This document shows, in pieces, positions 51,574-55,893 of a stretch of 64,000 nt of DNA (position 1 is the first letter of the stretch; every line of letters begins with the position of its first letter). Origin of the DNA: Roseitalea sp. MMSF_3546 (GTDB taxonomy: Bacteria; Pseudomonadota; Alphaproteobacteria; Rhizobiales; Rhizobiaceae). The notes below the pieces were generated by a model. That model had not been told where the DNA came from and searched no databases. It worked only from the letters and a program-made list of their open reading frames with translations. The stretch covers positions 1 through 64,000 of the forward strand of contig NZ_JASHKB010000015.1 in NCBI RefSeq assembly GCF_030732865.1, written 5' to 3'. The translations under genes were made by a program, and so were the position numbers.

Positions 51574-52323
51574 ATGGCCGCCAGCACACGCAAACGCCTC
51601 GATCATCTGCTCGTCGAGCGCGGGCTGTTCGCGACCCGCTCGCGGGCGCGCGATGCGATCGTGCGCCGCACGGTGCGCGTCGAGGGCAGCGTGATCGACA
51701 GGCCCGCCTTTGCCTGCCCGCCCGATGCGGCGATCGCGGTCGACGATCCGGCCCGCGGCTATGTTTCGCGCGCCGCGCTCAAGCTCAAGGCGGCGCTCGC
51801 GGCGTTCGACGTGCCGGTGGCCGGCGCAGCGTGCCTTGATCTGGGCGCGTCGACCGGCGGCTTCACGCAGGTGCTGCTGGAACACGGTGCGGCACGGGTG
51901 ACAGCCGTCGATGTCGGGCATGGCCAGTTGCATGAAAGCCTGCGCGCCGATCCGCGCGTCCGGCTGATCGAGGGCGTCAATGCGCGCGATCTGAGCCCGG
52001 CGCATCTGGGCGGCGCGGCGCCGCAGGTGGTCGTGTGCGATACGAGCTTCATCTCGCTGACGCTCGTGCTGCCGCCGGCGCTGGCGCTCGCCGCGCCGGG
52101 CGCGCATCTGGTGGCGCTGGTCAAGCCGCAATTCGAGGTCGGCCGCGCGCTGATCGGCAAGGGCGGGCTGGTGGCGCCGGACGACGCGCAGGCGGCCGCG
52201 CGCGACATCGGGGCCTGGCTCGACGCGCAGTCGGGCTGGCGCGCGCGCGGACTAGTCCCCTCGCCCATCGCCGGCGGCGACGGCAATCGCGAATGCCTGC
52301 TCTGGGGCGAAAAGGTCGGCTAG
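51574..52323 (+). CDS. tlyA: TlyA family 16S/23S rRNA 2'-O-methyltransferase
   Basis: A 249-residue RNA methyltransferase. An N-terminal S4 RNA-binding domain (RKRLDHLLVERGLFATRSRA) leads into an FtsJ-like SAM domain: GAACLDLGASTGGFTQVLLE (motif I), VVCDTSFISLTLVLPPALAL and VALVKPQFEVGR. SRAALKLKAALAAF before motif I is diagnostic of TlyA. It presumably methylates rRNA cytidines. Its stop TAG (52321-52323) overlaps the stop of the convergent enoyl-CoA isomerase gene within CTAG. Confidence 0.92.
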   Translation: MAASTRKRLDHLLVERGLFATRSRARDAIVRRTVRVEGSVIDRPAFACPPDAAIAVDDPARGYVSRAALKLKAALAAFDVPVAGAACLDLGASTGGFTQVLLEHGAARVTAVDVGHGQLHESLRADPRVRLIEGVNARDLSPAHLGGAAPQVVVCDTSFISLTLVLPPALALAAPGAHLVALVKPQFEVGRALIGKGGLVAPDDAQAAARDIGAWLDAQSGWRARGLVPSPIAGGDGNRECLLWGEKVG

Positions 52324-53078
52324 CGCTTGCGCCCCATGAAGGCCTTGAAGGCCGCGCGCGCCTCGTGCGATTGCAGCCGCTCGGCGAAATGGTCCGCCTC
52401 GAGCGCGATGCGATCGAGCACGGCCTGCCGGTCGCCCTTGAGGAGCCTCTTGGTCAGCGCCAGGGCCTGTGCGGGCTTGGCGGCGAGCGCCTCGGCCGCC
52501 TCCAGCACGCGCGCCTCCAGCGCCTCGGCCGCGACGATCCGGTAGACGAGGCCCGCCTCGCGCGCCTGTTCGGCGCTCAGCGTCTCGCCCATGGCGAGCA
52601 TGGCGAAGGCGCGCTGATGGCCCATCAGCGCCGGCGCGAGCAGGCTCGAGGCGGCCTCGGGCACCAGACCGAGGTCGACGAACGGCGTCCGGAAGACGGC
52701 GGCGGGCGTGGCAAAGGTCAAGTCGCAATGCAGGTTGAGCGTTGTGCCGATGCCGATGGCGAGCCCGTCGACGCCCGAGACAAGCGGCTTTTCAAGTCGC
52801 GCCACGCGGTCAAGCAAGCAGAACACCTCCGCGCCCATCTGACCGCCTTCGGCAAAGGCGAGGAAGTCGGCGATGTCATTGCCCGCCGAGAAGGCGCCGG
52901 GCCGGCCGAGCACGACGTGGACCCGCACGGTGTCGTCGGCCTCGGCTTCGGCCAGCGCCCGCTCCATGGCGATGTACATGGCGCGGGTGATCGCGTTCTT
53001 CTTGTCGGGCCGGTTCAGCCGGACGATCCGAATCGCGCCATGGCGTTCGACGAGGACGGTTTGGCTGGTCTCGGTCAC
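52320..53078 (-). CDS. Enoyl-CoA hydratase/isomerase (crotonase) family protein
   Basis: A 252-residue crotonase-fold protein. IVRLNRPDKKNAITRAMYIA, GRPGAFSAGNDIADFLAFAE (first oxyanion-hole strand) and SGVDGLAIGIGTTLNLHCDL (second oxyanion-hole loop) are standard. The catalytic region RTPFVDLGLVPEAASSLL places a Glu in P-E-A as in delta3,delta2-enoyl-CoA isomerases (PECI type), more than the two-Glu hydratase arrangement. It starts with GTG overlapping the stop of the acyl-CoA dehydrogenase (GTGA). Role in fatty or branched-chain acid oxidation is likely. Confidence 0.88.
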   Translation of the reverse strand: MTETSQTVLVERHGAIRIVRLNRPDKKNAITRAMYIAMERALAEAEADDTVRVHVVLGRPGAFSAGNDIADFLAFAEGGQMGAEVFCLLDRVARLEKPLVSGVDGLAIGIGTTLNLHCDLTFATPAAVFRTPFVDLGLVPEAASSLLAPALMGHQRAFAMLAMGETLSAEQAREAGLVYRIVAAEALEARVLEAAEALAAKPAQALALTKRLLKGDRQAVLDRIALEADHFAERLQSHEARAAFKAFMGRKR

Positions 53079-54868
53079 GGTCCCACCAGGTGTTCGGCAG
53101 CGGCGTGAAGGCTCGCCGCGCCGTGTTCGACGCGATCGCGCAGGGCGGTGGCCTGCGCCAGAAGGTTTTCGGCATAAAAGCGCGCCAGCGCGATGCGCTC
53201 ACCGGAATCGGGCGCCTCGGCCAGCGCACCCGCGGCCAGACACGCACCGCCGGCGACGAGCCCGAACAGGTGCTGATAGGGCGTTGCGGCGGCGAGCATG
53301 GCCGGCCTGTCGCCGTCGTCGAGCCGGGCCAGCAGCCAGGCGGTGGCGGCGCGCAGATCGGCGAGCGCGGTATCGAGACAGCGCGCGGTTTCGCCCAAGC
53401 CCGGTGCATTCGCCGCCCTGACGCGATCGACGATCGTCGCCAGTTCGTCCAAATAGGCATTCACGCAAGCGCCATCCGACAGTGGCAGCTTGCGCTGGAC
53501 CAGATCGATGGCCTGAATGCCGTTGGTGCCCTCATAGATCTGCGCGATGCGCGCGTCGCGCATGTAGATCGCCGCGCCGGCCTCCTCGATATAGCCCATG
53601 CCGCCATGGACCTGCACGCCGAGCGAAGCGACCTGCGACCCGATATCGGTGGAAAACGCCTTGGCGAGGGGCGTGAGCAGGCCGGCGCGCTCGTGCCAGA
53701 AGGGGCGCGCGTGCGGCGGCGCACCGCGCGCCATGTCGATGGCGTGGGCGCAGGCCTGGCAGATGCCGCGCGCCGCGCCGGTCAGCGCCTTCATGGTCAG
53801 AAGGTTGCGCTGGACGTCCGGGTGCAGGACGATCGGGCTCATGGCGTCGTCATTCCAGCCCGGCGCCCGGCCCTGGCGGCGCTCATTGGCGTAGGCACGC
53901 GCCTTCTGAAAGGCGGCCTCGGCCACGGCGACCCCCTGAATGCCGACGGCGAGGCGGGCATTGTTCATCATGGTGAACATGCAGTTGAGCCCGCGATTTT
54001 CCTCGCCCACCAGCCAGCCGATCGCCCCCGGCGTTTCGCCGAAGCGGCCCTCGCCATAGATCATGGTGCAGGTGGGCGAAGCGTGAATGCCCAGCTTGCG
54101 CTCGATGCCGGAGCAGACGACATCGTTGCGCGCGCCCGTCGAACCGTCCGGTTCGACCAGGAATTTGGGCACCAAAAACAGCGAGATGCCACGCGTGCCG
54201 GCCGGCGCGTCGGGCAGGCGGGCGAGCACGAGATGGACGATGTTGTCGGTCAGGTCGTGATCGCCATAGGTGATGTAGATCTTCTGGCCGAAGATCCGGT
54301 AAGTGCCGTCGCCGGCCGGTTCGGCACGGGTTTTCAGCGCGCCAAGGTCGGAGCCGGCCTGCGGCTCGGTCAGGTTCATGGTGCCGGTCCATTCACCGGT
54401 GACGAGCTTTTCCAGATAGACCGATTTGAGCGCGTCGCTGCCATGGGCATCGAGCGCCTCGACCGCGCCCATCGTCAGCGTCGGGCACAGGCCAAAGGCG
54501 ATCGAAGCCGAACACCACATTTCCATGGCCGCCATGGCGAGCGTCGTCGGCAGGCCCTGTCCGCCATGGGCCCTGGGGCCGGCCAGCGCGTTCCAGCCGC
54601 CGGCGATCCAGTCGGCATAAAGCTGCTTCCAACCGGGCGGCATGGTGACACCGCCCTCGTCACGTCGCGCGCCGTGGCGGTCACCCGGCAGGTGCAGCGG
54701 GGCGATGCGCTCGGTGGCGAACCGGCCGGCCTCGACCAGGATCGCGTCGATCAGATCGTCGCCGAGTTCGCCGGCGTGATCGCCGAGCCGGCCCGCGGCG
54801 AGGGCCTCGCCACGTCCGCAGACGTGCCTGAGCGCGTGGGTGATGTCCGCGACGGGCGCACGGTACAT
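53075..54868 (-). CDS. Acyl-CoA dehydrogenase, long form (DmdC / AcdA-like)
   Basis: A 597-residue FAD enzyme of the long acyl-CoA dehydrogenase class that includes 3-methylmercaptopropionyl-CoA dehydrogenase. TMNLTEPQAGSDLGALKTRA and RIFGQKIYITYGDHDLTDNI bind FAD and substrate, and AQIYEGTNGIQAIDLVQRKL holds the catalytic Glu. An extra C-terminal helical domain (HLFGLVAGGACLAAGALAEA) is typical of this class. The ribosome site is a full AAGGAGG six bases before ATG 54868. Chain length specificity cannot be read. A 16-bp palindromic operator-like site lies 32 bp upstream. Confidence 0.91.
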   Translation of the reverse strand: MYRAPVADITHALRHVCGRGEALAAGRLGDHAGELGDDLIDAILVEAGRFATERIAPLHLPGDRHGARRDEGGVTMPPGWKQLYADWIAGGWNALAGPRAHGGQGLPTTLAMAAMEMWCSASIAFGLCPTLTMGAVEALDAHGSDALKSVYLEKLVTGEWTGTMNLTEPQAGSDLGALKTRAEPAGDGTYRIFGQKIYITYGDHDLTDNIVHLVLARLPDAPAGTRGISLFLVPKFLVEPDGSTGARNDVVCSGIERKLGIHASPTCTMIYGEGRFGETPGAIGWLVGEENRGLNCMFTMMNNARLAVGIQGVAVAEAAFQKARAYANERRQGRAPGWNDDAMSPIVLHPDVQRNLLTMKALTGAARGICQACAHAIDMARGAPPHARPFWHERAGLLTPLAKAFSTDIGSQVASLGVQVHGGMGYIEEAGAAIYMRDARIAQIYEGTNGIQAIDLVQRKLPLSDGACVNAYLDELATIVDRVRAANAPGLGETARCLDTALADLRAATAWLLARLDDGDRPAMLAAATPYQHLFGLVAGGACLAAGALAEAPDSGERIALARFYAENLLAQATALRDRVEHGAASLHAAAEHLVGP

Positions 54869-54899
54869 GGCGTCCTCCTTGGCGCAGCGCTACCGGCTA

Positions 54900-54915
54900 T
54901 TGACGTAAACGTCAA
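54900..54915. promoter_or_regulatory. Operator-like palindrome upstream of acyl-CoA dehydrogenase operon
   Basis: TTGACGTAAACGTCAA has two perfect 7-bp arms (TTGACGT / ACGTCAA) around AA, centred 40 bp before the acyl-CoA dehydrogenase start. Its form recalls binding sites of MerR-family regulators of acyl-CoA and branched-chain amino acid catabolism (LiuR type) in proteobacteria. The regulator itself is not in this window, so the assignment is by resemblance. Confidence 0.55.
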
Positions 54916-55020: not shown

Positions 55021-55893
55021 TTGACCCAACTCCTGTCGCCGCTTCTGCCGAAACAGTTCCGCAAGTCGACGCCGATCATCCCGGTGGTGCGGCTGCGCGG
55101 CATGATCGCCGCCAGCGGTTCGCCGGTCCAGCCTGCATTGTCGCTGGCAGTGGTCGCGCCGGCGCTGGCGCGGGCCTTTTCGATCAAGCGCGCGCCGGCG
55201 GTGGCGATCAGCGTGAATTCGCCGGGCGGCTCGCCGGTGCAGTCGCGCCTGATCTACAAGCGCATCCGCGACCTCGCCGACGAAAAGAACAAGCCGGTGT
55301 TCACCTTCACCGAAGATGTGGCCGCCTCGGGCGGTTACATGCTCGCGGCGGCGGGCGACGAGATCATCGCCGATCCGTCCTCGATCATCGGCTCGATCGG
55401 GGTGATTTCGGCCGGCTTCGGCTTTGTCGACGCGATCAAGAAGCTCGGTGTCGAGAGGCGCGTTTACACGGCCGGCCAGAACAAGTCGACGCTCGACCCC
55501 TTCCAGCCGGAGAAAGAAGAGGACATCGAGCGGCTCAAGGCGATCCAGCTCGATGTGCACCAGGTCTTCATCGACCTGGTCAAGGCGCGTCGCGGCGACA
55601 AGCTCGCCGACGACCCGGACCTTTTCACGGGCCGTTTCTGGGCCGGCGAGAAGGCGAGGGAACTGGGTCTGGTCGACGATATCGGCGACATGCGCAGCTT
55701 CATGCGCGCGCGCTTTGGCGAGAACACGATGCTCAAGCTGGTCACCATGCCGCGCGGATTGTTCGGTCGGCGTCCGCCCGTCGGGGTCGGCTGGAACGGC
55801 GGGCTTGATCCGGCCGCGCTGTCGGCGCAATTTTCGTCGGGATTGTTGTCGGCGCTCGAGGAACGCGCCCTGTGGAACCGTTACGGGCTTTGA
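55021..55893 (+). CDS. S49 family peptidase (SohB/SppA-like)
   Basis: A 290-residue serine peptidase. FTEDVAASGGYMLAAAGDEI contains the catalytic Ser in A-S-G-G-Y and SSIIGSIGVISAGFGF is the following conserved block. ISVNSPGGSPVQSRLIYKRI binds substrate. The general-base Lys is expected in LFTGRFWAGEKARELGLVD. No long N-terminal membrane anchor is seen. TTG 55021 is used as start because the protein then begins MTQLLSPLLPKQFRK as in relatives. It diverges from the acyl-CoA dehydrogenase. Confidence 0.89.
   Translation: MTQLLSPLLPKQFRKSTPIIPVVRLRGMIAASGSPVQPALSLAVVAPALARAFSIKRAPAVAISVNSPGGSPVQSRLIYKRIRDLADEKNKPVFTFTEDVAASGGYMLAAAGDEIIADPSSIIGSIGVISAGFGFVDAIKKLGVERRVYTAGQNKSTLDPFQPEKEEDIERLKAIQLDVHQVFIDLVKARRGDKLADDPDLFTGRFWAGEKARELGLVDDIGDMRSFMRARFGENTMLKLVTMPRGLFGRRPPVGVGWNGGLDPAALSAQFSSGLLSALEERALWNRYGL

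Follow-up and report, generated by a model that had tools for sequence, protein, structure and literature searches.

A LiuR-like candidate operator recurring upstream of acyl-CoA dehydrogenase and other fatty acid degradation genes in Roseitalea and related bacteria

A short palindrome upstream of an acyl-CoA dehydrogenase (ACAD) operon in Roseitalea sp. MMSF_3546 is probably the operator of a MerR-family, LiuR-like regulator of acyl-CoA catabolic genes. It is quite likely that a repressor of the LiuR clade, most likely the protein termed here MerR-B and possibly shared with its paralog MerR-A, controls fatty acid activation, β-oxidation, and the flavoprotein electron route. The palindrome, TTGACGTAAACGTCAA, lies at positions 54900-54915 of the window, i.e., the whole 64,000-nucleotide stretch that was analyzed (Table 1). 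The earlier note had described it as a 16-bp palindrome, TTGACGT-AA-ACGTCAA, and both 7-bp arms are indeed exact reverse complements with AA in the center. The ribosome binding site AAGGAGG that had been reported ahead of the ACAD ATG is present as described; the upstream position of the palindrome also stands, at a distance of 31 counted bases instead of 32. The closest solved structure to the window ACAD is 8png. A divergent SppA-like peptidase gene uses the same intergenic region as ACAD, and the two genes are also divergent in four other genomes of the genus.

Table 1. Coordinates of the features discussed. G, C, and L handles denote genomes, contigs, and loci.
Feature	Location	Strand	Remarks
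Operator at ACAD, TTGACGTTTACGTCAA (minus-strand reading, towards ACAD)	window, 54900..54915	-	own genome; sequence, conservation
Possible -10 element TAGCGC	window, 54887..54892	-	17 bp past TTGACG; TAG at such spacing conserved with operator
Ribosome binding site AAGGAGG	window, 54874..54880	-	sequence
ACAD, 597 aa, operon gene 1	window, 53075..54868	-	PF12806 C-terminal domain; ATG at 54868
Enoyl-CoA hydratase/isomerase, operon gene 2	window, 52320..53078	-	NF004681 above cut-off; 4-base overlap with ACAD
SppA-like S49 peptidase, divergent	window, 55021..55893	+	TTG start chosen; ORF list start 54943
Site at MerR-A/ACAD2-GST-thiolase-FadB (main β-oxidation operon), 22-bp double operator	G000:C12:39758-39779 (L030:7759-7780)		own genome; conserved widely in family
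Site at etfBA, 22-bp double operator	G000:C5:11736-11757 (L029:7737-7758)		own genome
Site at mdh-sucCD	C25		own genome
Site at long-chain acyl-CoA ligase gene (fadD)	C31:7936		own genome
Site at nitronate-monooxygenase/FabK-like (NMO-like) gene	C31:739		own genome
Site at 123-aa gene, opposite HerA-like gene	C44:140277		own genome
MerR-A	G000:C12:39975-40385		adjoins ACAD2 operon
MerR-B	G000:C10:69272-69655		adjoins gene taken for mgtE from sequence

The palindromic shape by itself is within chance, since the window contains 15 perfect 7-2-7 palindromes and 30 Markov simulations gave 11.7 on average (range 7-23), and no second place in the window matches the palindrome within three mismatches. 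It is the recurrence of the particular sequence, together with its conservation, that is above chance. The whole genome (4.05 Mb in 63 contigs) contains 46 matches with up to three mismatches versus 14 for a reversed control, a count that covers both strands and in which some places are counted twice; with a looser consensus and at most one mismatch, there are 17 places versus three for the control. Across 61 related genomes TTKACGTNNACGTMAA occurs without mismatch 99 times, versus seven times for the control (summed by hand). That the palindrome is a chance structure without function would agree with the lack of enrichment of 7-2-7 palindromes of any sequence in the window, but such a reading is hardly credible when the site recurs and is conserved sequence-specifically across diverged flanks.

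Upstream of the ACAD orthologs, TTKACGTNNACGTMAA with at most one mismatch was found in 24 of 47 genomes, G060 being excluded from the count as its gene starts at the contig start. Within the family the site is present in 23 of 31 genomes and missing in eight; outside the family it is present in one of 16 (G046). An alignment was made of 23 of the 30 upstream regions, picked for the best site and including one (L059) with three mismatches, and of the 14 operator positions that are specified, 12 are shared by 22-23 of the 23 sequences, whereas positions of the upstream flank are shared by 6-14. A site within 300 bp was found in 29 of 80 named loci (L259-L338) from Oricola, Mesorhizobium, Phyllobacterium, Shinella, Chelativorans, Roseibium, and others, versus 0 of 1600 shuffles; these loci partly repeat the genomes of the first set, and the two counts are not independent.

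The earlier note had suggested that further copies in the genome might precede catabolic acyl-CoA genes and a MerR-family regulator. Neighbors were assigned for nine of the 17 near-consensus places of the genome, corresponding to seven promoters, and the first part of that suggestion holds for a portion of the copies: six of the 17 places, at four promoters, precede core fatty acid genes, and three precede mdh, the NMO-like gene, and the 123-aa gene. The second part is borne out, as MerR-A adjoins one copy and MerR-B has a variant ahead of its own gene. Six targets have the site upstream both in our genome and in all four genus-mates: ACAD, the ACAD2 operon, etfB, mdh, the NMO-like gene, and the 123-aa gene. 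Other targets vary: fadD has the site in two of the five genus genomes (our own and one mate), an alkB-like gene in three (all mates), and ETF-QO in four, that is, in the four mates and not in our genome, where no site was found upstream of ETF-QO and the best place has five mismatches.

The genus-mate set comprises 57 sites with at most one mismatch in 47 stretches from the four mates. Twenty of the stretches are at core fatty acid genes, four each are at mdh, the NMO-like gene, and the 123-aa gene, and 15 are elsewhere, with no recognized fatty acid neighbor: four at a DUF2147 gene, four at a 149-aa gene without a Pfam match, and seven others, which include a thioesterase and sites within reading frames. 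The ETF-QO, alkB-like, and DUF2147 identities come from scanning one genus-mate each, the others being matched by DNA similarity, and the alkB-like gene is named from its sequence, its Pfam match being FA_desaturase. The exact operator is found 17-18 bp ahead of the alkB-like start in L211, L222, and L230 (G002, G004, and G001, respectively). A search of our genome with the alkB-like gene gave no match, a result that the search tool treats as uninformative by itself. The 123-aa protein (L028:7312-7683; orthologs in L201, L217, L226, and L237) has a weak, below-cut-off match to DUF2780; in each of the five genus genomes the operator is 18-22 bp ahead of the start, and the gene may also belong to the regulon.

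At three promoters, those of ACAD2-thiolase-FadB, etfBA, and ETF-QO, the operator is doubled: in TTGACGTTTACGCAAACGTCAA two 16-mers overlap with an offset of exactly 6 bp, giving 22 bp in total. There are ten overlapping pairs among the 57 genus-mate sites, all offset by 6 bp, compared with 0.08 expected from simulation, although the ten represent three promoters in four related genomes and so are not independent. The ACAD2 double site is present with at most three mismatches over both 16-mers in 27 of 32 regions, which comprise 21 of 30 MerR-A loci and 11 of 13 stretches from genomes lacking MerR-A; outside this set are nine MerR-A loci, mostly non-family, and two stretches devoid of a site, L253 and L258. 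One tentative explanation, which we hold to be less probable than not, is that two MerR dimers bind on almost opposite sides of the helix, as the 6-bp offset would imply, or that paralogous repressors compete or combine there, with single sites taking one dimer. Interlocked binding of this kind would, as far as we are aware, be without precedent in the MerR family, and the double operators pose a concrete structural question about how this family binds DNA.

Our genome encodes seven MerR-domain proteins, of which two, MerR-A and MerR-B, are LiuR-like; neither scores above the cut-off of any NCBIfam model. MerR-B is present in all 31 family genomes that have an ACAD ortholog, and TTGACTTTTACGTAAA or a near variant (up to two mismatches) is found upstream of its start, mostly at 50-80 bp, in 29 of 30 loci, a count that has no shuffle control. 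The ACAD site is found in 23 of 33 genomes with MerR-B versus one of 14 without (Fisher p about 9e-5), a test confounded by descent because the association follows the family boundary. In a tree of 21 of the 30 MerR-B loci and 29 of the 30 MerR-A loci (all but L094, at a contig end), from which three distant MerR rows were dropped, MerR-B groups with two proteins, a LiuR from Vibrio and a LiuR-like one from Aeromonas, with support of 99/96 but a long-branch warning at the split between A and B. The mean identities of Vibrio LiuR to MerR-A and MerR-B are equal, at 41.1 and 41.6%.

It could be argued that MerR-A is the main protein to recognize the operator, since its gene adjoins both a 22-bp operator copy and the main β-oxidation operon, and that MerR-B controls something else. 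In genomes without MerR-B the motif (up to two mismatches) is upstream of the A-type gene in five of the eight loci read, which makes it probable that MerR-A reads the motif too, and G046, the sole genome outside the family with an ACAD site, has an A-type gene and no MerR-B. We regard this alternative as unlikely, because MerR-A was not found in ten of the 31 family genomes that encode an ACAD ortholog and nine of these ten keep the ACAD site, and because the 22-bp site (up to three mismatches overall) is present in ten of the 13 ACAD2-type regions of A-lacking genomes, the exceptions being L246 with four mismatches and L253 and L258 with no site. MerR-A as an obligatory regulator is ruled out, as most A-lacking genomes keep the sites. 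Both paralogs probably read the site, with MerR-B the likelier principal regulator. On a Paracoccus ferrooxidans plasmid (L100:5462-6384), a tandem pair of MerR genes immediately precedes the same gene order, ACAD-GST-thiolase-hydroxyacyl-CoA dehydrogenase; the best site there has two mismatches.

The position of the operator suggests how it might act. Its first six bases on the minus strand, TTGACG, can double as a -35 hexamer, and the 23 aligned ACAD regions have a second conserved block 17 bp past TTGACG, where the three bases of TAG agree in 17, 18, and 15 of the 23. In the genus the -35-like operator hexamer followed after 17 bp by TAG is found at ACAD in five of five genomes and at etfB in four of five; at ACAD2, TAG is 17 bp past the hexamer TTTACG, counted from the second 16-mer, in five of five. 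This spacing was not seen at mdh (0/5), fadD (0/2), the site of MerR-B itself, or three of the four ETF-QO sites. A stricter consensus promoter scan returned no promoter, and therefore the -35/-10 reading rests on conservation and not on a consensus score. The operator lies 15-27 bp ahead of the start codon at alkB, the NMO-like gene, and the 123-aa gene, close enough to suit repression. The -35-like overlap is, in common with the site itself, its conservation, its shared targets, and the site ahead of the regulator gene, a computed property of the DNA.

Classical MerR activator promoters have the operator within an over-long spacer of 19-20 bp. Activation of this kind was considered and rejected, as TTGACG and TAG are separated by a 17-bp spacer and the operator starts at the -35-like hexamer. 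With the operator overlapping the -35 hexamer, repression lifted by acyl-CoA is the likeliest mechanism. MerR-B bound at TTKACGTNNACGTMAA would cover the -35 hexamer and block RNA polymerase; acyl-CoA from incoming fatty acids would release the repressor; and release would switch on the dehydrogenase/hydratase operon along with three others, ACAD2-GST-thiolase-FadB, etfBA, and the mdh-sucCD cluster. We infer MerR-B binding, repression, and, from the targets, the acyl-CoA inducer. An otherwise unassigned operon thereby gains a probable regulon, a regulator, and a testable class of inducer, namely acyl-CoA derived from fatty acids and, in some genus-mates, also from alkanes.

The earlier note had proposed a LiuR/MerR-type operator ahead of acyl-CoA catabolic genes, for which the fatty acid targets and the LiuR-like MerR genes at copies of the site argue, so that this identification is probable; it had also connected such sites with branched-chain amino acid breakdown, and here the evidence points the other way. 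In our genome, which is 99.5% complete, the Vibrio methylcrotonyl-CoA carboxylase (MCC) query detected one carboxyltransferase of 36% identity, with mmdA as its best model, and the Vibrio isovaleryl-CoA dehydrogenase (IVD) query detected two acyl-CoA dehydrogenases of 31 and 36% identity. The leucine route appears to be absent from the genome, and because IVD and MCC were not found with these queries, control of fatty acid rather than branched-chain amino acid breakdown fits better. The closest solved structure to ACAD2, another target, is 6ijc, which we take to be a DmdC; for this reason methylmercaptopropionate, also named in the earlier note, is still a possible candidate.

In Vibrio campbellii (L099), TTGACGTTTACGTAAG and TTTACGTAAACGTAAA are located between ivd-type genes and liuR-liu. 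The neighbors of the regulator gene encode an acyl-CoA dehydrogenase, a carboxyltransferase, a gamma-carboxygeranoyl-CoA-hydratase-like protein, HMG-CoA lyase, MMSDH, and a thiolase, and it is from these neighbor genes that the protein is recognized as LiuR. The Aeromonas locus (L098) has no site within two mismatches and no recognized liu genes, and consequently the Aeromonas protein adds nothing on function. A classical LiuR operator for leucine, isoleucine, and valine breakdown would account for a motif identical to the one upstream of Vibrio liuR, between the liu and ivd genes, and branched-chain amino acid LiuR regulons are described in passages of PMC5343134, PMC3223726, and PMC7238569. 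Such a function is nevertheless very improbable here, given that no MCC or IVD was found with the Vibrio queries and that no liu or ivd gene is among the recognized targets. The preferred reading, a regulator of fatty acid degradation, suggests instead that a single operator sequence serves branched-chain breakdown in Vibrio and fatty acid breakdown here, the motif having been kept and the pathway exchanged.

Of the known regulators of fatty acid degradation, FadR, PsrA, and FadP are released by acyl-CoA. They belong to the GntR and TetR families, whereas the candidate regulator here is a MerR-family protein; their regulation of fatty acid degradation genes is described in part of PMC5343134. 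LiuR appears as a MerR-family repressor in passages of PMC3223726, and in PMC7238569 the ILV box is connected with growth on butyrate in Rhodospirillum rubrum. The system described here resembles the LiuR/ILV box in having the same operator sequence as that upstream of Vibrio liuR, a MerR regulator approximately 41% identical, and a variant site before the gene of the candidate regulator MerR-B. It differs in its targets, which are fatty acid activation, β-oxidation, ETF, and mdh-sucCD, the leucine pathway genes not having been found. In the open-licence literature searched, we recognized no description of a MerR fatty acid regulator in rhizobia. Kazakov et al. (2009, J Bacteriol 191:52) are said to have proposed that MerR-family LiuR orthologs control fatty acid degradation in 22 alphaproteobacterial species, and the present system is like that regulon, as reported, in having sites ahead of several fatty acid operons that are conserved in relatives, and a regulator gene with its own site (29 of 30 MerR-B loci). 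Control of fatty acid genes by LiuR orthologs in alphaproteobacteria has reportedly been proposed already; the 22-bp double operators with their 6-bp offset are less expected.
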